Positions 6,677-20,930 of a DNA stretch of 21,767 nucleotides are shown piece by piece. This DNA is from a virus. Every line of letters starts with the position of its first letter. The stretch's first letter is position 1. The notes under the pieces are model-generated. The model did no database searches. It was not told the origin of the DNA and saw only the letters and a list, made by a program, of their open reading frames with translations. The DNA is taken from positions 1 through 21,767 of IMG/VR virus record IMGVR_UViG_3300021085_000257; one strand, written 5' to 3'. The position numbers and the translations under genes were made by a program.

Positions 6677-9600
6677 TTATTGAGCTCCTGTAGCATTTGG
6701 ATCAAATTGTTCTGCTGCTTGTGACGGCTTTGTATTTACTGGATCACCAAACTCATTATAGGTAACCCCGGACGAAGTTTGTGTTACTGGTGAACTTGTT
6801 GCTGTGCCCCGTGATGTATAGAACGAAGCAATAGCGGCAATCTTATTACCTTTTTGTACATCATATAAGTTATCAGCTGGATCAAGTGGAAAATATGGCC
6901 TTAGTGTTGTGTCAGCTTGTGTTGATTGGGCTGTTTGCGTTGTTGATTTTGTTCCGCTAACAGAATCGTTTGTAGCACCTGCTTGCCCGTCGGACATTGC
7001 TGATGGTGGTTCAGGCGGTCCTACAACTCCACCTGGTATTTGACCGTTTCTTGTCCAATCATAAGATCCACCTTCACTTGTGGCTGCACTAAAATGCATA
7101 GCATCTGTTGCACTTTTCCAGTCACCGCCCCAACCTAGGCCATATTTAGATGCAAGCGCACTCATTAAACTTCCTGTACCGTCTCCGGGCATATCTGTAG
7201 GTTCTGGAGCGTCTTCTGGACGTGGGCGAATCATACCATTATCTTTTGAATTAATATCAATTGCAAGTCCACTAGCATGATAGCTAGGAACACCAGTATC
7301 TGTGTTACGCTGTACATATCCGCCTAACGTAGTTATTTCATAACCTAGATCAGTTTCTAACTCGTTAATTAAACCTTGGAATTTATCTGCAACTACAGCA
7401 GCAACTTGTGTTGTTTTTCCGCTTGGTGTTGTAATTGTTTTTAACGGACCGTTTGGACCTGTTGGTTTTATTATTTCATTATTTCGATTTGTAGTATCCT
7501 CCATTGCATCAGTTCCTGCAACATCGTTAGGATTTTTATCGTTAGGGTTAAGTCCCGGGCATGCTGGTTTTTCAATTACCGCTTTAACTTTACTAATACC
7601 TTCTGTACTTTGATTTCTACGTCTTACTAGTTCTAAAGTTTGTTTAAATTGGTTTCCACTAATTGAAGATGTAACCTTTACAACTTGGTACACACCGCTA
7701 AAACTATCTACAGCAACAGTTGCTCCTGGAAAAAACATTGTTCCGTCATTGTTATAATCAACTGGAGTTCTAAAATTTACAATAATATCTATTTCATTTC
7801 TTTGATGATCCATTGCGCCGCCAGATGTTATATTTTTTGATCCGCCTCTAGCCGATGTATGGTTTCCTAATCCGCTGTCAGGAATAAAATAAGGATCGCC
7901 CCAAATTTCTAAATTTGCTGTAATTAAATCTACTTTACTGTTAACTAAAGCATTATGGAACATCTTAGCAACTTCTTCACCATATTGTTTATTGTAACTA
8001 CCACCATTAAAATTACCGGCTTTTATAGTCGATCTAGTAGTGCCTTCTGGTATTGTGTTTCCTGCTGTTGGTTTTCCTAAAGATGGCTTTTTTGGAGTAA
8101 CAACAGTTTTTTCTCTATCGTTAACTAAACTTGATGCATTTAATTGTCCCATGTCCATTTGTATTGCTTGGAAAAATGCGGCATTAAATTTAATATCAAA
8201 TCCTAATACATCTTCATTTGCGCCACTATATATGTAATTGTAAGTTTTAACACAATGCTTTGCTTTTTCAATTAGTCCTGCGCCTGCTTGGTTAGGCGCA
8301 CTAAATCTACTTGCATCTACTTTGTAAGGAACAACATCATAAACATAAATCTTTGGCATTGTTCCTGTTGCACTTTCATGTTGTCTGTCACTTATAACAA
8401 AACACTGTGACTCAATTCTAAACCAATCTACTTCGCCTTTTTCGTCAGTTCTTTTTAGTGCTGTTCTACCGTACTCGCTAACAATCACTAGTTCTTCAAT
8501 AATCTTAGTAATTGGTGTTCCTTGATTAAATTTAAAAATTCTATTGGTATCGCTTATAGTAAGTTCTATGCCGTTACGACTGTAGACGTGTGTGTCTTTG
8601 TCATAAGCATACAACCCAAGACCAAACGGATTATCGCCGCCTTCGGTATAATCAGATATCATTGGGCTTGCACCTATTTTATTTAGATTTTTTACAGAAC
8701 TTGATTTTAATGTTTCTAATAATGCACTACTAGTTGTGTCTGCACCTATATTTTTAAAGAAGCTAGTTAGACTATCAACTTCGTCCTCATCTGCTGTTTG
8801 GGCACCTTTACGTGATGACCTTGCTTCTGCATTTGTTGTGGCTTGATCTAGTATATCTGGTCTTCTTAAATATGATTTTGTATAATCGCCTGTACGCTGT
8901 GAAGGGAATCTAACAAGATAAAAATCAGTTGCTGTAGAGCATGAGTCTTTAGCAATTTTTTGTAAACTATTATTAATTACTGTTGATAAACTTTGTTCGC
9001 CCACTGACAGTATTTCAACTACGTCATTTCCTGTAAGACTTAAAGGTTCTTTTATTAACTGTACATCGTCATCAAAAGATTGTTCGTTCCAAGGTATGCA
9101 TGATACTTGATATGTACTACCGCCATTATTAACATCAAACTCAATATTTGTTAATTTAAAAGGTATTTTTCTATTACAAAATGCCATTGGTTTAATTTCA
9201 TTTAATTTTTTATCAGATTCTCCAAAGCCTACAAAATCAAGTTCTAACAAATATGGGCATTGTAGATAATTTTCAAAACCTGCATCAAATGCCGCTGACT
9301 GTAGCATTTGTAAAAATATTCCCATACTGTATGGTTCTTTTACAGTAAAGCTAATATTAAATGCTTGTGTTGCACCTGTTTTACTATTAGTTGTTACAAC
9401 AGCATCCATTTCAAAATCGTCTATAAAATATTCTAGGTTGGCTTTTTCATCACCCATTTGGTCATATGCTGTTTGTATACGCTTGTTATCAATACCTCCG
9501 CCACCGCTACGTAAGATAGTAAAGTCTGCGCCATTTTGAAGATATGTATCTGATGGATTATTTGCACTGTCAGCGGTTAACGATCCTAAAGTAAATATAC

Positions 9601-10165
9601 AATTTACACTATTGAATGCTCTTAGAGGATTTTTTAATGCAATTCCCGGACCTTTTGGTTCTATCTCTGGGGAACTATCTGAGCCTTTGACAGTGTCTGC
9701 AAATTTTGAAGCATATTCTTCTACTGTTGTTTCAACAGCACCATCAAGTGCCTGAGCTGCATAATCTACTATGTCAATTGGTATTGAATCAACCAACGGA
9801 ATTACTTGTTCAACAAGTTTATCTTTCTTACCTTGTAAAGATGCTCCTAGTGCGTTTGCAAACTGATTGAGTCCCGGTGGATATATTGCATTAATGTCGG
9901 CTCCTAAATTTGCTAAGGACGGTAATGTTAAATTTCCAAATCCTCCTATTGTATTTGTTAATCCTGTTGCGTCAATTTTAGAAAATTTATCTGTAAGTAC
10001 GCTAACAGCACCTGAAGCATCATAAACTTTTCCTGTTGCGTTCTTCATGTCGCCGAAGCTTTGAGAAAGATCAACATTAGCCACCGCATCAGTAACAGCC
10101 GTACTAAGATTGCTAGTAAGTGTCTTTGCTTTATTTTCAATAATTTGCTTTGGATTAATTGACAT
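6677..10165 (-). CDS. Tail hub protein (gp27-like position) with M15 peptidase domain
   Basis: This 1162-aa protein lies directly upstream of gp5, as expected for the gp27-type hub that carries the spike. The first 170 residues are helical and Ala/Ser-rich. Residues about 180-860 are beta-rich and have no enzymatic motif; assigning them to a gp27-like hub is inference from position and size. Residues about 900-1045 are a zinc peptidase of the M15 family (VanY / L-Ala-D-Glu endopeptidase type): SYHASGLAIDIN gives His963 and Asp970, and WGGDWKSATDAMHFS gives Asp1021 and His1024. The spacings H-x6-D and D-x2-H are those of phage endolysins such as T5. It would cut peptidoglycan cross-bridge peptides. 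The last 120 residues are a Thr/Gln/Ser-rich linker. The ATG at 10165 directly follows the gp53 stop, with an AGGA ribosome site. Confidence 0.85.
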   Translation of the reverse strand: MSINPKQIIENKAKTLTSNLSTAVTDAVANVDLSQSFGDMKNATGKVYDASGAVSVLTDKFSKIDATGLTNTIGGFGNLTLPSLANLGADINAIYPPGLNQFANALGASLQGKKDKLVEQVIPLVDSIPIDIVDYAAQALDGAVETTVEEYASKFADTVKGSDSSPEIEPKGPGIALKNPLRAFNSVNCIFTLGSLTADSANNPSDTYLQNGADFTILRSGGGGIDNKRIQTAYDQMGDEKANLEYFIDDFEMDAVVTTNSKTGATQAFNISFTVKEPYSMGIFLQMLQSAAFDAGFENYLQCPYLLELDFVGFGESDKKLNEIKPMAFCNRKIPFKLTNIEFDVNNGGSTYQVSCIPWNEQSFDDDVQLIKEPLSLTGNDVVEILSVGEQSLSTVINNSLQKIAKDSCSTATDFYLVRFPSQRTGDYTKSYLRRPDILDQATTNAEARSSRKGAQTADEDEVDSLTSFFKNIGADTTSSALLETLKSSSVKNLNKIGASPMISDYTEGGDNPFGLGLYAYDKDTHVYSRNGIELTISDTNRIFKFNQGTPITKIIEELVIVSEYGRTALKRTDEKGEVDWFRIESQCFVISDRQHESATGTMPKIYVYDVVPYKVDASRFSAPNQAGAGLIEKAKHCVKTYNYIYSGANEDVLGFDIKFNAAFFQAIQMDMGQLNASSLVNDREKTVVTPKKPSLGKPTAGNTIPEGTTRSTIKAGNFNGGSYNKQYGEEVAKMFHNALVNSKVDLITANLEIWGDPYFIPDSGLGNHTSARGGSKNITSGGAMDHQRNEIDIIVNFRTPVDYNNDGTMFFPGATVAVDSFSGVYQVVKVTSSISGNQFKQTLELVRRRNQSTEGISKVKAVIEKPACPGLNPNDKNPNDVAGTDAMEDTTNRNNEIIKPTGPNGPLKTITTPSGKTTQVAAVVADKFQGLINELETDLGYEITTLGGYVQRNTDTGVPSYHASGLAIDINSKDNGMIRPRPEDAPEPTDMPGDGTGSLMSALASKYGLGWGGDWKSATDAMHFSAATSEGGSYDWTRNGQIPGGVVGPPEPPSAMSDGQAGATNDSVSGTKSTTQTAQSTQADTTLRPYFPLDPADNLYDVQKGNKIAAIASFYTSRGTATSSPVTQTSSGVTYNEFGDPVNTKPSQAAEQFDPNATGAQ

Positions 10166-11432: not shown

Positions 11433-12293
11433 TTGAGAAAACGTAATTACCTTAATAATAAGGACATATTGTCAGAAATCCATAAATCTAAGAACACTTT
11501 TAATAGTTATGTGGAATCTACGTATCATCAGTACGATTTGATACTATTAGACGTAGCTAAAATTAATAGACTGACAATCGCAGAAGCAAAAAGAGCAAAA
11601 GCAAAAAGACTCAGTTCAGCTGAATATGAGAGACGTAAAATGGCCGGCGAAAAGGTCAAACAAGCTGAGTGTGAGGTTGATTGGAAAAAGATAACAAAGG
11701 AAGAACTAATCTTCCGTGTTATGACATTTGATCATATTCCAGAAGAACCAGGACGTAAGAAAAATCCTAAAACTATAGCAGACACTAAGACTAAACTTAA
11801 CTTTCCACCATTTCATCATTACAAATTTAATGACGAAGGTGATCTTATTTTAGTTGGTAAAAGTCATTGGGTCGGTGGCATGGACAACGGACACTTTGAC
11901 AAGACACACGGCAAAGCAACAAACACACTTGCTACTATGTGGTTGAAGTTAGTTGATAGATATGCTACACGTGGCAATGTACGTGGTTACACTTATAACG
12001 ATGAAATGAAGGGACAAGCAATACTTCAGTTAGCACAGATTGGACTACAATTTGACGAGTCAAAATCAAACAATCCTTTTGCTTACTACACGGCGGCTGT
12101 AACTAACAGTTTTGTACGTGTTATTAACATTGAAAAACGTAATCAAAACATTAGAGACGACATTTTAGAGATGAACGATCTTAATCCTTCTTATACAAGA
12201 CAAGCACAAGGCGAATGGGAAGCAAGTGTAAAACGTAACGAACAAGCACCGATTACAATCTTTAAAGATAAAAAACCGGTTGACAACGCTTAA
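11433..12293 (+). CDS. 55: Late-transcription sigma factor gp55
   Basis: gp55 is the phage sigma factor that directs host RNA polymerase to late promoters, working with the sliding clamp. The sigma region-2-like core is clear at residues about 163-245: LVDRYATRGNVRGYTYNDEM, AILQLAQIGLQFDESKSNN, PFAYYTAAVTNSFVRVINIEKR. The same order of conserved blocks occurs in cyanophage gp55. The 286-aa protein is about 100 aa longer than T4 gp55 (185 aa). Most of the extra length lies before the core, including a basic helix (residues 45-78) and a segment with KSHWVGGMDNGHF (143-155). The start is TTG at 11433 with GGAG 7 nt upstream; no nearby ATG fits. Its own promoter is a perfect sigma70 match, consistent with early expression before the late genes it activates. 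Confidence 0.93.
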   Translation: MRKRNYLNNKDILSEIHKSKNTFNSYVESTYHQYDLILLDVAKINRLTIAEAKRAKAKRLSSAEYERRKMAGEKVKQAECEVDWKKITKEELIFRVMTFDHIPEEPGRKKNPKTIADTKTKLNFPPFHHYKFNDEGDLILVGKSHWVGGMDNGHFDKTHGKATNTLATMWLKLVDRYATRGNVRGYTYNDEMKGQAILQLAQIGLQFDESKSNNPFAYYTAAVTNSFVRVINIEKRNQNIRDDILEMNDLNPSYTRQAQGEWEASVKRNEQAPITIFKDKKPVDNA

Positions 12294-15349: not shown

Positions 15350-15799
15350 ATGGAGTGGACGTACAAAGGCAAAAAAATTAAAGAAATACCTGACGAGTAC
15401 GAAGGCTTCGTTTATCTAATAACGAACAAAAAGACTGGTCAAAAATACGTAGGCAAAAAGTTAGCAAAATTTAAGACCACAAAACCACCACTCAAAGGCA
15501 GAAAAAATAAACGTAGAGGCTACAAAGAAAGCGACTGGAAAACATACTATGGTAGTTCAGACAGGCTAAACGCAGACGTAGCGTCACTAGGCGAAAAACA
15601 CTTCACAAGAGAAATATTATACCTATGTAAAGGTAGGGGCGAAATGTCCTACATAGAGGCAAGAGAACAATTTGATAGGCGTGTACTTGAAACAGATGAT
15701 TACTATAACGGTATCATTAATGTTAGAGTAGGCGGATCAGAAAAACTCAAACAGGCATTGCTAGAACATCACATCAAGGCAAAACAACCCAACACATAA
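15350..15799 (+). CDS. SegE-like GIY-YIG endonuclease
   Basis: This 149-aa protein has the GIY-YIG nuclease pattern in the divergent SegE-like form. The two core strands are FVYLITNKKTGQKYVGKK (residues 20-37; Y22-L-I24 and Y33-V-G35 stand for GIY and YIG). The basic helix follows (KGRKNKRRGYKESDWKTYYG), then REIL with Arg87 and the catalytic Glu region at YIEAREQF (E103). In T4 the Seg proteins are freestanding homing endonucleases that nick or cut related phage DNA. There is no visible DNA-binding domain beyond the nuclease core. It sits at the end of the gp47-gp46 block, 34 bp after the small gene, and has no clear ribosome site. It could be a homing enzyme, a repair nuclease or a domesticated one; sequence does not separate these. 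Confidence 0.8.
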   Translation: MEWTYKGKKIKEIPDEYEGFVYLITNKKTGQKYVGKKLAKFKTTKPPLKGRKNKRRGYKESDWKTYYGSSDRLNADVASLGEKHFTREILYLCKGRGEMSYIEAREQFDRRVLETDDYYNGIINVRVGGSEKLKQALLEHHIKAKQPNT

Positions 15800-16346: not shown

Positions 16347-17090
16347 ATGAAAATAAATGATATTCTAACAGAAGCAAAAGCTGATCCTGATGTAGTAAAA
16401 AGATTTGCAGGTGTAAGTGCCAGTCAAAGATCTTATTACATATATCACTGGGCTAAAGAAAAAGGCATTCCTTCAGATGATGCTATGGAAATGGCAGGTT
16501 ATACAAGAGGCTCGTATATAGGCCAAGGATCATACAATTGGGAATATAATCCACCACGTGAAAGTTTAGCAACTGAAGCTCCTGTAGGTATGTTAAAAAA
16601 AGCTGGACAGGCCGTAGGTGCTAAAGCACTTGGAGCAATTGGCATGAAGGGCAAAGCAGGCAATTTAGCAGGCAAAGCAGATCTTAGTGCTACAGCAAAT
16701 ACCTTATATAATGAATTTAGACAGTACCTTGGAACACAAGGACTAGATATAAAAAACGCAACAGGTCCATCTTTAGTTGCATTTTTAAAATCTAAGCGTG
16801 TTAAGAAAATTGGTGCTGTTCCTAAAGGTCCACTAACTAAGCAAGTTATGGATAATGCATTTATGCAAGCCGCAAAAGAAGCAATGAATACACAGCAAGG
16901 TGTAAAAGGACCAGTTGCTAGTCCTGCACCTGCTCCTAAGAAAGCTGTTGCTAAAAAAGTTCCAGCTGGGTCTAGTGGTTATGTAAAGACTAAGGATGCT
17001 GCACTTCAACTCAATGCAAAAGAGAAAAGAAGATTAATTCAACAACTTGAAAAAAGTATTAAAATTCCAGCTAAGAAACCTACTGTTTAA
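16347..17090 (+). CDS. Putative internal head protein with capsid-targeting leader
   Basis: The 247-aa protein begins MKINDILTEAKADPDV. This is like the capsid-targeting leader of T4 internal proteins (MKTYQEFIAEA) and ends in L7-T8-E9 before A10, a match to the T4 prohead protease gp21 site (L/I-x-E). Such proteins are packed into the prohead, trimmed, and injected with the DNA. That assignment is inference from the leader alone. The body has YYIYHWAKEKGIPSDDAMEMAGY (residues about 30-52; a short helical segment), an Ala/Gly/Lys-rich middle, and a proline-alanine-lysine linker (PVASPAPAPKKAVAKK) before a basic C-terminal helix. No known domain is recognised. The start has AAGG 10 nt upstream. 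The gene stands alone behind a late-type box, and its stop overlaps that of the convergent gene. Confidence 0.65.
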   Translation: MKINDILTEAKADPDVVKRFAGVSASQRSYYIYHWAKEKGIPSDDAMEMAGYTRGSYIGQGSYNWEYNPPRESLATEAPVGMLKKAGQAVGAKALGAIGMKGKAGNLAGKADLSATANTLYNEFRQYLGTQGLDIKNATGPSLVAFLKSKRVKKIGAVPKGPLTKQVMDNAFMQAAKEAMNTQQGVKGPVASPAPAPKKAVAKKVPAGSSGYVKTKDAALQLNAKEKRRLIQQLEKSIKIPAKKPTV

Positions 17091-17317
17091 AAATAAGGTA
17101 AGCCGGACTTTTTAGTAGTCTCTAGATTTTCTTTAATTATATCAGAAATAATATCACGGTCTTCCGGTGGAAGCTCAAACGTTTCATTCATAGTAAGTGA
17201 TCCACGCATATGCCATGCAAGTTTAAAAAGATTGTAACGCATTTGCTTCACTTCTTTTTCTAGGACCCCAACTTCGTGAAGTATTTCTGATACGCTTAGT
17301 GCTAAGATCCTTATACG
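17087..17317 (-). CDS. C-terminal -1 frameshift extension of the gp26-like protein
   Basis: This is a 76-codon open frame in the -1 phase of the gp26-like gene, beginning at codon CGT directly after its slippery site and ending with TAA at 17089-17087. In this phase an upstream TGA lies only a few codons before the slippery site, so the frame opens right at the junction. The peptide runs RIRILALSVSEILHEVGVL, then EKEVKQMRYNLFKLAWHMRGS, LPPEDRDIISDIIKENLE and TTKKSGLPYF, i.e. protein-like, mostly helical, with no stop. There is no good ribosome site for the first internal starts (GTG 17251, ATG 17242). Known phage tail chaperones (lambda gpG/gpGT) use this same design. Alternatively it is an independent 51-aa protein from ATG 17242. 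I recall a similar small frame near gp26 in cyanophages. Confidence 0.7.
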   Translation of the reverse strand, partial: RIRILALSVSEILHEVGVLEKEVKQMRYNLFKLAWHMRGSLTMNETFELPPEDRDIISDIIKENLETTKKSGLPYF

Positions 17318-18165
17318 AAAAAACTTGATTGATCAAATGTTACAGGAACTGTATAAGTTGCTGGCACACCTGCTTCTATTTCTTCCGGAGTAGCATCTAT
17401 TACTAGTGGCTTAATTGTAAATTTTTCTCTTTGCTTTTCGATATGATCGGTAACACTAGAAAATAATTGTTTATCTGAATTAGCAATAAACTCTTTGATA
17501 TGACCTCTATCACTAACAACATCTTCACCAATTCTAATTGAATGAATTGAATGCTCGAGTGTATCTAAAGTAAGGTCTGTTAATTTTTTAAAACTATCAG
17601 TGAACGTTTGTAGTTTATCACTTTCAGATATTTGATCGTTATTAAGTGCATTGTATATTCTTTGTTCGTTAAACGTTGCTGTACTAGTTTCAGTAAACTG
17701 TCTGTATGTTAACGGCTTTAAATGAACAGTTAAATCGCCCATGTTAAATTCGTGTTCGTAGTTTACATTTGAAAACTGATCTAACATTACTCTTAGATCT
17801 AGATCAAAGTCTTTATCTTCACCAGAAACTGGTACTTTAATACTAACTTCCATCTTTTCACCATATGTTGCTATACGAATAGCAATTAAGCATGCATCAA
17901 GATCCATTGAAGGCATATTAAATGCGTCTTTAATTGCCGGTATACAACTTTGAATTACATCAACTGTAGCTTGACCGTTCAATAAAGCATCTGGTGTTTT
18001 GATCATTATTTCGTCCCTAGCCGTCATAGGAAATACTGGATACTCACCTGTTTCAGATACTTCCAAACTTCCTTTAGGGTAATATTGCCCGTTACTTGGT
18101 AACGACAAATATATCTTAGGTTGTCTAAAATATTTCTGTAACGGATTTGTGTTTTTGTTTTCCAT
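17311..18165 (-). CDS. 26: Baseplate/tail assembly protein gp26-like
   Basis: The 284-aa protein resembles the gp26-type T4 baseplate protein of marine phages: QPKIYLSLPSNGQYYPKGSL (residues 14-33), FPMTARDEIMIKTPDALLNG, CIPAIKDAFNMPSMDLDACL, and LTYRQFTETSTATFNEQR. T4 gp26 is 208 aa. The longer frame from 18207 is not used: the ATG at 18165 has a perfect AGGAGG at 18171-18176. The gene ends AGT TTT TTC GTA TAA, so T TTT TTC stands in frame as a canonical -1 slippery heptamer two codons before the stop. A shift gives a 359-aa fusion (283 + 76). Its place beside a tape-measure-like gene fits a chaperone that binds the tape measure, as gpG/gpGT do. The hub-subunit label in databases may not reflect its real role. 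Confidence 0.8.
   Translation of the reverse strand: MENKNTNPLQKYFRQPKIYLSLPSNGQYYPKGSLEVSETGEYPVFPMTARDEIMIKTPDALLNGQATVDVIQSCIPAIKDAFNMPSMDLDACLIAIRIATYGEKMEVSIKVPVSGEDKDFDLDLRVMLDQFSNVNYEHEFNMGDLTVHLKPLTYRQFTETSTATFNEQRIYNALNNDQISESDKLQTFTDSFKKLTDLTLDTLEHSIHSIRIGEDVVSDRGHIKEFIANSDKQLFSSVTDHIEKQREKFTIKPLVIDATPEEIEAGVPATYTVPVTFDQSSFFV
17317..17323 (-). promoter_or_regulatory. Slippery heptamer T TTT TTC for -1 ribosomal frameshifting
   Basis: On the minus strand six T residues followed by C are phased as (AG)T TTT TTC in the gp26-like frame. Both Phe tRNAs can re-pair after a one-base slip (UUU and UUU). Two small possible stems follow (CTTA-GCAC-TAAG and ACTT-CACG-AAGT), weaker than a typical stimulator. 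There is no obvious upstream Shine-Dalgarno-like stimulator. Confidence 0.65.
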
Positions 18166-18170
18166 ATATT

Positions 18171-18176
18171 CCTCCT
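18171..18176 (-). promoter_or_regulatory. Shine-Dalgarno deciding the gp26-like start
   Basis: AGGAGG on the minus strand, 5 nt before the ATG at 18165. It selects this start over the ATG at 18207, which lacks a ribosome site and would add 14 residues. Confidence 0.85.
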
Positions 18177-18189
18177 GGCTAAATACTAT

Positions 18190-18197
18190 TATAAATG
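18190..18197 (+). promoter_or_regulatory. Candidate late promoter box for the tape-measure gene
   Basis: TATAAATG, 7 of 8 to TATAAATA, lies 49 nt upstream of the GTG start at 18246. Together with the minus-strand box at 18211-18218 it forms a divergent late promoter pair facing past each other. Confidence 0.5.
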
Positions 18198-18210
18198 TAT
18201 ATACCATTTT

Positions 18211-18218
18211 TATTTATA
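18211..18218 (-). promoter_or_regulatory. T4-type late promoter (perfect TATAAATA) for the gp26-like gene
   Basis: On the minus strand an exact TATAAATA lies 45 nt upstream of the gp26-like ATG (18165) and upstream of its AGGAGG. This is the best late promoter match in the window. Confidence 0.7.
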
Positions 18219-18245
18219 TACGTACTTAACTGGATTAGATTATAA

Positions 18246-20930
18246 GTGGCTGACGAAATTAAAATTGAAAATATAGGCGGTGAGAACGGTGTCGCTAGTG
18301 AAGTAACACTGGTGCGACTTGTTGCGGCTATGGAAAAAATGGCCAAGACTTCGGGTAACGATCCTAAGTCACAAGGTGCTAAAACACAACAAGCATACAA
18401 CAAAGCCCAACAGAACGGTGTTAAAGTATCAACTAAGCATAGAGAAGCTGTTAAAGATAATACTACAGCCGTTAAAAACAATACAAAGTATTTGAACTTA
18501 ATGGGCGGCGGATTATTAAAACTTGCAACAGCAAGCATTGGTGCTGCTATTGGCGGCCTAAAAGGACTTACTGAAGAGTTAATATCCGGCGGCGACAGTT
18601 TATCAGATTTTGCTAAACATGTGCCTGTAGTTGGCTCAACGTTAACAATGTTTACAGGAATACTTGATAGAAGTTATGCATCATTCCAATCAATGGCTCT
18701 TGCAGGTGCTGATTTTGGTTATAGTTTAGCAGATCTTAGATCAACAGCCGCTGAAGCAAGACTACCTCTAGAAACATTCAGTGCAATGGTAGCACAAAAT
18801 ACTGAAAATTTAGCTGCATTTGGTGGTAACGTAACACGCGGCGCCAGACAAATTGCAGGAATGACTGATTCACTAGGAAAAGATACAAGAGAAGAATTTC
18901 TTGCAATGGGCTTCACAATGGAAGACCTTAACGAAACAATGTCTAGAAATGCATACTTAAATAGAGCAGGTTCAAGGACAGAAATTCTTAGTAAAGCACA
19001 AAATGCAGAAGCAGCTGCAAGTTTAACAAAGAATATGTTAACACTTTCAAAATTAACAGGCCAAGACGTAAAAACACAACAAGATAAAATTGCACAAGCT
19101 CAAATGGACTTTGCATTCCAAATGGAATTAGCAAAACTAGATAAGAAAGAAAGAGAAAAATTAAATGCTGCAATGGCTGAAGCACAAGCTACAGGCGGCA
19201 AAGTTGCTGTTGATGCTCTAAAAGCAGAATTCTTAGGAATGCCTCCAGTAACTAGAGAACTTCAATTGTTTACAGCAACTCAATCAGAAAATGCTTCATT
19301 AGTGAGTGCTATGTTATCTAAAGCATTAGATAAAAGCACTACACTTGAACAGTTTGAATCAGGACAAGCAGATAGAATGGCCAACTATCTAGAAGCACAA
19401 GTAGCAGCTGCAGGCGAACTAGATGCAATTTTAAAATTAGCAGCCGCAGGCGGTGAAGGTATTCCTAGTGAAATATCAGCATTATTTGCAGGTCAAGTTG
19501 ATCTAATATCAAAATATTTTACAGAATCGGGCGAAGGTCTTATATTTGCAAAAGATGAATTTTTAGCAGATTATGCAGCAGGTAAGATTAAGCCAGAAGA
19601 AGGCGGCGAACTTGATTCTATGGGAACATTTATAGAAGCTCTTGGAAACGCAAGACTAGCAATTGTAGACAACTTTATTAATCCTATTGTAGATTTGCTT
19701 TCCCCGGTAATTAAGGATATAACAGCATCCTTTAGTTCATTTGTAGGCGAAGAAGGTACTAATACTAAGTTTCAAAACGCACTAAAAGGCCTAAGTACAT
19801 ACATAAACCAATTTAAAATAGATTTTAAAGAAGATCCTAGCAAAGCGGTGACAGGTGTATTTAAAGATATTTCAAAAAGCATATCTGAATTTTTTATGGG
19901 CGGAGTTGATGAAAATGGCAAAGAATTTGAAGGATTTTACCAATCAACACTAGCACCAATGTTTGTAAAGATAGGTGAAGATATAATGAAAGGAATAGGT
20001 GTTGTTTTTAAAGAAGGGGTTACGTCATTATTCCAAAATCCATTAGTGATAGGTGCGATGGTAGGTGGCATTGGTTTGATGTTTGCAGGCGGCAAAATTA
20101 AGACTGCTATGGCACTAGGCGCAGCTTCACTATTTTCACGTTTAAAAACACCCGGAGCAAGTCCTACTGTTACTAGAGCACCTGCAGGTGCAATTGATCC
20201 TAAAACAGGCAAAAAAATAGGCGGACAATTCCAACCTGTCAAAAAGAATCCTTTATTAAGTTTTGGTAAAGGCGCGGCTCGCGGAATGAAATTTATTCCA
20301 GGTGTTGGTCTTGTTGCCGCTGGTGCAATGGGATTATATGACGGCTTTGGCGGATTTAATGCAGATGAAGATGCAGGATTTGGCGAAAGTCTAGGTAATG
20401 CTGGAAGTAGCATAATGAATGGACTAACATTTGGTTTACTTGGTTCAAGTCCACAAGAAATTGCTGCAGAAGCTGAAGCTAAAAAACTAGAAGAAGCAGA
20501 GAAAAAAGATTTAGCAAAAGATCTAGGGTTAACAACTGAAAGTGCAAAATTACTAGAAAGAATGGCCGGTATCGGCGGCGGGATGGAAAGAGTTGCAGGA
20601 GCATTTGAAAGAATTGATAAATTAGAAAGATTTAGTGAAAATGTAAATGCAATACAAAAAGGACTTGACATATCAGAGCTTTCCAAGTATAATGTTAATA
20701 TGCAAGAAATAGCAAGGTCCTTAGAAGACATGAATAAAGCGTTAGCAGAAGATAATAAAGGATTATTTGGCGGATCAGGCGTAGCATCAGCTGATTTACT
20801 TAAAAAGATGGGCGGATCAGGAGTGAGCGAAGAGACTGCAAACAATATAAATACAGCGTTAGTGAAAATGTCTTCAAAACTAGATAAAATTATTACACAT
20901 ACAAAAGCGACAGCAGACGCCGTAGACTAA
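18246..20930 (+). CDS. Putative tail tape-measure protein (gp29-like role)
   Basis: This 894-aa protein has the character of a tape measure: long helical, Ala/Lys/Glu-rich stretches (about 1-80 and 230-420) and hydrophobic Gly/Ala-rich segments. These lie at about 86-108 (LLKLATASIGAAIGGL), 594-632 (PLVIGAMVGGIGLMFAGG and AMALGAASLF) and about 680-705 (FIPGVGLVAAGAMGLYDGFGG). Such segments may insert in the host membrane during DNA entry. T4 gp29 is 590 aa; a longer protein would predict a longer tail, if tail length scales with it. The divergent gp26-like chaperone candidate beside it supports the call, as tape measures and their chaperones are usually adjacent. No sequence motif proves it. 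The start is GTG at 18246 with only a weak GGA ribosome site. Portal gp20 follows after 9 bp. Confidence 0.6.
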   Translation: MADEIKIENIGGENGVASEVTLVRLVAAMEKMAKTSGNDPKSQGAKTQQAYNKAQQNGVKVSTKHREAVKDNTTAVKNNTKYLNLMGGGLLKLATASIGAAIGGLKGLTEELISGGDSLSDFAKHVPVVGSTLTMFTGILDRSYASFQSMALAGADFGYSLADLRSTAAEARLPLETFSAMVAQNTENLAAFGGNVTRGARQIAGMTDSLGKDTREEFLAMGFTMEDLNETMSRNAYLNRAGSRTEILSKAQNAEAAASLTKNMLTLSKLTGQDVKTQQDKIAQAQMDFAFQMELAKLDKKEREKLNAAMAEAQATGGKVAVDALKAEFLGMPPVTRELQLFTATQSENASLVSAMLSKALDKSTTLEQFESGQADRMANYLEAQVAAAGELDAILKLAAAGGEGIPSEISALFAGQVDLISKYFTESGEGLIFAKDEFLADYAAGKIKPEEGGELDSMGTFIEALGNARLAIVDNFINPIVDLLSPVIKDITASFSSFVGEEGTNTKFQNALKGLSTYINQFKIDFKEDPSKAVTGVFKDISKSISEFFMGGVDENGKEFEGFYQSTLAPMFVKIGEDIMKGIGVVFKEGVTSLFQNPLVIGAMVGGIGLMFAGGKIKTAMALGAASLFSRLKTPGASPTVTRAPAGAIDPKTGKKIGGQFQPVKKNPLLSFGKGAARGMKFIPGVGLVAAGAMGLYDGFGGFNADEDAGFGESLGNAGSSIMNGLTFGLLGSSPQEIAAEAEAKKLEEAEKKDLAKDLGLTTESAKLLERMAGIGGGMERVAGAFERIDKLERFSENVNAIQKGLDISELSKYNVNMQEIARSLEDMNKALAEDNKGLFGGSGVASADLLKKMGGSGVSEETANNINTALVKMSSKLDKIITHTKATADAVD

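Follow-up and report, generated by a model that had tools for sequence, protein, structure and literature searches.

Does the gp26-like gene of this virus encode one protein or two? The gene lies on the minus strand (17311..18165) of the 21,767-nt stretch analysed here, hereafter the window, and yields a protein of 284 aa, the predicted short tail assembly chaperone (gpG analogue). It is matched by PF12322 (T4 bacteriophage base plate protein; E 7.4e-11, 42.6 bits against a gathering score of 24.5) and by phrog_150 (E 3.4e-13). An AGGAGG ribosome-binding site (18171..18176, minus strand) is found 5 nt before the ATG at 18165; the 298-aa form in a mechanical ORF list begins upstream of this site and is probably not used. 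Before the gene stands a TATAAATA element (18211..18218, minus strand), which we take to be a match to the T4 late promoter element, and a PHROG search identified a relative of the late sigma factor in the window (11433-12293). In a scan of 16900-18400, promoter-like sites were not commoner than in shuffles and no terminator-like sites were found. The window had no Rfam match at gathering scores.

The question arises at the 3' end of the gene, which reads ...TCA AGT TTT TTC GTA TAA... on the minus strand. After the slippery heptamer T TTT TTC (17317..17323), which keeps the phase of the 18165 ATG, come a single sense codon (GTA) and the 0-frame stop TAA (17311..17313). In the -1 frame, a TGA and three sense codons (Ser-Ile-Lys) precede the heptamer, from which the frame stays open to a TAA at 17089..17087. 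This extension (17087..17317, minus strand; the predicted gpT-like part) comprises 76 codons after Phe-Phe and the stop; the last base of the heptamer, C, begins its first codon, CGT. The predicted -1 fusion product is 359 aa long. The coordinates, the heptamer phase, the upstream TGA, the 76 open codons and the 359-aa fusion given in the preliminary description were all correct when the sequence was read again. At 17087-17090 the stop codons of the extension and of a convergent 247-aa gene overlap tail to tail.

Could such a motif be a chance occurrence, or the shifted frame an assembly error in one contig? In-phase heptamers are common in AT-rich DNA: the 14 long ORFs of the window hold 38 of the form X XXY YYZ (Y = A or T). 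T TTT TTC itself occurs in phase only once among these 14 ORFs, and across 15,071 codon positions of 58 distinct related gp26 ORFs, TTTTTTC appears in phase at one other place. An IMG/VR search with the single gp26 protein returned 22 loci, two of which hold the gene start only; in all 20 that reach the gene end, the heptamer is in phase and is followed by a homologous extension. Searches of IMG/VR with profiles gave the same picture. The heptamer is in phase in 80/80 loci for the gp26 profile (best 80 of at least 589), in 80/80 for the extension profile (best 80 of at least 579; the query itself begins FFR) and in 80/80 cyanophage-type loci for the cyanophage gp26 profile (best 80 of at least 594). 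These three lists overlap and favour close relatives, with contigs common to the gp26 and extension lists. The extension is incomplete at the contig end in 3/80 gp26-profile loci and 2/80 cyanophage-type loci, and the partial locus L282 was left out. Among the gp26-profile loci the 0-frame stop follows the heptamer start by 10 nt (76 loci) or 19 nt (4). With amino acids and codon usage taken into account, the chance that all clusters carry NNT TTT TTC is log10P -49.9 for 49 clusters (60 distinct sequences, 80 loci) and -65.6 for 73 clusters (79 distinct sequences, 80 loci), values that are overstated as clusters were treated as independent. In the cyanophage clusters the codon before the heptamer is AGT, TCT, GCT or AAT, so that it is the base that is kept and not the residue.

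In the three lists together the run of T is exactly six in 240/240 loci, in 174 distinct contexts. These contexts and the 16 GenBank phage records described below refute chance and assembly error, whose probability is negligible. The constant T6 run might also be taken as a site where RNA polymerase slips and produces a mixed mRNA pool, and it is indeed present in all 240 loci. A T6 run is short for transcriptional slippage. The run does not vary from six, and polymerase slippage requires neither a fixed phase, nor C as the seventh base, nor a stem about 5 nt downstream such as many of the loci possess. This explanation is therefore considered very improbable.

Beyond IMG/VR, 23 GenBank records besides T4 were taken from the hit lists by our own choice. 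Sixteen of them have T TTT TTC in phase and an extension: Phosso, PA5oct, RaK2, Atu_ph07, Vibrio 2.275, SCTP-2, XaC1, S-RIM50, P-SSM4, ORM_20, GAP32, CBB, Sharanji, Munch, SNUABM_47 and Hallingskeid. Here the distance from heptamer to stop varies between 10 and 40 nt, while the phase is constant. A less clear case is the uncultured LR756511, with the heptamer 70 nt ahead of the 0-frame stop. XacN1 (L287:2280-2522) has T TTT TTT instead of T TTT TTC; no other T run in phase was seen to exceed six. Five of the 23 records (Mel-JY01, SP-15, immuto, BRock and LIS04) carry the extension in the +1/-2 frame and have no T TTT TTC in phase; the Mel-JY01 annotation gives it a gene and a start of its own. 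Judging from these five records, different kinds of shift, or else a separate start, may be in use within the family. The expectation that relatives keep the heptamer and its phase was thus borne out, in 80/80 loci of each best-80 list and in 16/23 GenBank records. The preliminary description had further named, as contrary evidence, relatives that lack the heptamer and start the small frame independently. No heptamer-less locus occurs among the IMG/VR loci examined to the gene end (20 from the single-protein search and 80 in each best-80 list), whereas the five distant records do lack it and Mel-JY01 has its annotated start.

The small frame could instead be a separate gene, whose translation would begin at an internal codon after termination of gp26, through reinitiation or coupling. 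In GenBank a small separate gene is indeed annotated at this place in Phosso, Vibrio 2.275, XaC1 and, as gp51, in the cyanophages. This was examined in 92 representatives of 102 distinct sequences, drawn from the 160 loci of the best-80 gp26 and extension lists. The first -1 codon is Arg (CGN) in 92/92, with all four third bases in use, while the 0-frame residue at this position is Ala, Gly, Val or Glu. No possible start codon precedes this Arg codon in 91/92 representatives; the earliest one is found, in 91/92, at codon index 3 to 38 and is not conserved, although residues are conserved from index 2 on. In the window, the earliest start (the GTG of a 54-aa ORF) would omit the first 24 of 78 residues. 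Purifying selection acts on the -1 frame, with pN/pS of 0.52 for codons 2-12 and 0.40 for codons 13-77, compared to 0.98 and 1.42 when the DNA of codons 13-77 is read in the other two frames. The invariant Arg, the lack of an earlier start and the low pN/pS fit a reading in -1 from the slip site itself. A separate gene would also leave the silent positions of the heptamer without a reason for being kept, and we hold this alternative to be very unlikely.

Programmed -1 ribosomal frameshifting that yields a gpG/gpGT-type pair of tail assembly chaperones, as first proposed for this locus, is consequently the preferred reading, with a probability of roughly 0.9 on the sequence evidence. It is supported by the kept heptamer and phase, by amino-acid conservation in -1 from the slip codon onward and by the lack of a conserved start.

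Frameshifting of this type may be stimulated by RNA structure. In the window, the 11-nt 5' arm of a predicted stimulator stem (17301..17311, minus strand) follows the heptamer by 5 nt and its 3' arm lies at 17262..17272 (minus strand). Taken alone, this 11-bp stem is unremarkable (-13.5 kcal/mol, z -1.21), as 27 of 200 shuffles fold equally well. For the 92 representatives, the mean best stem score is 11.1, compared to 5.9 in synonymous-codon shuffles (sd 0.2, maximum 6.6, 60 rounds). Scores of at least 10 are reached by 55/92, against 3.9% in shuffles, and in the 37/92 marine representatives below 10 the stem is weaker or absent. The 5' arm starts at 5 nt in 63/92, a position that is partly by construction since the search was restricted to 5' arms 4 to 8 nt past the heptamer. 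In control searches 30 to 120 nt further on, at most 1/92 strong stems was found per offset. Folding of 40 of the 92 representatives, using 70 nt from 10 nt past the heptamer start, gave a mean z of -2.09; at offsets 25 to 120 the z lies between -0.41 and 0.27. An upstream Shine-Dalgarno stimulator was considered and rejected, since in 89/92 representatives nothing in -22..-4 matches AGGAGG at more than 3/6 bases, which is below background.

The 3' arm ends mainly about 36 or 54 nt downstream, and also at about 66 or 74 nt. A single RNAalifold consensus for all 92 rows showed no stem under default settings and a weak one when ribosum scoring was applied; the stem emerged once the rows were split by arm position. 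In the two main arm groups (33 and 35 of the 92 rows, with the window replacing L120, which has the same gp26), the covariation score exceeds 500/500 shuffles and all slides. These groups were picked for having a stem with its 3' arm at that place, which biases their paired percentages upward. Further pair types show no excess over shuffles in either group, pairs changed on both sides show none in one of the two, and the mid-arm structure shows none when applied to the near-arm group. On a gp26 tree of 89 of the 92 rows, the arm class needs 21 changes; well supported branches alone require no fewer than 8 for the 54-nt class and 7 for the 36-nt class. A stem about 5 nt past the heptamer thus covaries within the family, and its 3' arm has moved repeatedly. 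The RNA hairpin probably aids the frameshift. Among 70 cyanophage-type representatives the stem score is 8.2, compared to 6.2 in shuffles (maximum 6.6, 40 rounds); no common arm position was found in these loci, and the stem is weaker or absent in most. It also scores below 10 in 9/15 other records, enterobacterial jumbo phages among them.

How does this one-gene arrangement relate to T4? T4 gp26, T4 gp51 and the window gene are all matched by PF12322. The profile phrog_634 matches both the cyanophage -1 extension (E 3.4e-29, profile 56-119) and residues 147-246 of T4 gp51 (E 1.2e-23, profile 2-103), and T4 gp51 accordingly looks like the long form made from a gene of its own. The cyanophage "gp51" (L113:3738-3875, L114:3573-3758) is annotated separately, although no stop interrupts the -1 frame between it and the slip site; on this sequence evidence it is the -1 extension. 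Compared with an alignment of cyanophage, ORM_20 and T4 gp26/gp51 proteins, the window gp26 profile gives a 95% match. For the extensions, marine against jumbo-phage profiles give 99.7%, jumbo against cyanophage a weak 59%, and cyanophage against T4 gp51 36% by hhalign. The direct match of the marine to the cyanophage extension is poor (9%), and the marine extension found no support as a direct homologue of T4 gp51 (profile match to the gp51 C-terminus nil, 0.2%). In a fold search, the AlphaFold model of gp26 (pLDDT 82.6) had no clear match, the HK97 chaperone 2ob9 appearing at rank 45 (Z 5.8, rmsd 4.4, 99/107 residues), and the extension model had nothing above Z 2.3. A PDB sequence search with the gp26 profile returned nothing relevant (best E 0.13).

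The preliminary description had also placed the gene beside a tape-measure-like gene. The neighbour in question encodes 894 aa on the plus strand (18246..20930) and possibly is a tape measure gene, given its weak similarity to the RaK2 neighbour (E 1e-4). Against this, E is 0.30 for the Phosso neighbour, and the gene is transcribed divergently, a departure from the operon that chaperone and tape measure genes usually form. Tail tube, gp26, extension and tape measure follow one another in this order in SP-15, immuto and LIS04, and in BRock the gp26 gene lies between the tail tube gene and another very large gene. Two other window genes were characterized in passing. A SegE-like GIY-YIG protein is encoded at 15350-15799 (Pfam E 1.8e-35), for which the NAD synthetase label of its best PHROG (447) is probably wrong. 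Among the baseplate genes, 6677-10165 encodes 1162 aa that include an M15 peptidase domain (Pfam E 3.8e-14).

The system likened here is that of lambda. The lambda heptamer differs from T TTT TTC, and the window gene is divergent from its large neighbour. Passages of PMC5009743 describe gpG/gpGT and a frameshift that is widely conserved except in T4. In T4 the two forms come from two genes on opposite strands, whereas the window would use one gene and a -1 frameshift. In the passages of PMC3004832 that bear on these proteins, gp26 and gp51 are listed as hub assembly chaperones, gp51 being essential and of unknown function; genetic studies cited there place gp26 in the hub itself, contrary to the chaperone reading. 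In passages of PMC10885494 and PMC12846349, Vladimirov et al. 2022 is the source given for chaperone genes of T4-like phages, for two-gene forms and for poly-T slip sites. From these citing passages we infer that the chaperones of Vladimirov, Gautam and Davidson (Virology 2022) are gp26 and gp51. The T4-like chaperones would then share PF12322 with the window gene and, as excerpted from PMC10885494, have short and long forms, while the poly-T -1 slip sites cited in part of PMC12846349 resemble that of the window gene. The equation of gp26-type proteins with gpG/gpGT, made in the preliminary description, is well supported by sequence but is not new in its chaperone role. The same part of PMC12846349 describes a Vandenendeviridae chaperone (phage Adele) with a conserved poly-T -1 frameshift at a GTTTTT slip site before the tape measure gene. 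This is another lineage than that of the window virus, likened by slip site and position. A literature search of titles and abstract openings recognised no paper on the stem or on the marine and jumbo-phage breadth, which is not proof of absence. The kind of system is known; the breadth of lineages and the hairpin with its moving 3' arm are possibly new.

What the sequences show directly is the heptamer and its phase, the conservation, the selection that acts on the -1 frame from the slip codon on and the covarying family stem; from them we infer the slippage itself, its efficiency, its stimulation by the stem and its role in assembly. Most ribosomes would end at the TAA and release the 284-aa short chaperone. 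A minority would be paused on U UUU UUC by the stem-loop about 5 nt downstream and slip back by one base, the two tRNAs re-pairing in the -1 frame to UUU UUU. The slipped ribosomes would add 76 residues, for a long form of 359 aa. If the parallel with lambda gpG/gpGT holds, the tape measure protein would be coated by the short form, the extra domain of the long form would recruit tail-tube subunits, and both forms would depart before the virion is completed. A wider proposal is evenly poised between right and wrong: that a stem drives the frameshift, its 3' arm having shifted among at least four sites (about 36, 54, 66 and 74 nt) in coding sequence, with the stimulator re-made often under selection, and that the one-gene form of marine, cyanophage and jumbo phages would be ancestral and T4 gp51 a fixed copy of the long form.

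If true, the frameshift would correct the "baseplate hub" annotation in many marine and jumbo phage genomes, as well as missing or mislabelled partner genes such as the cyanophage "gp51". The hairpins would provide a natural series of stimulators for the measurement of frameshift efficiency, and T4 genes 26 and 51 would be linked to a testable chaperone role.
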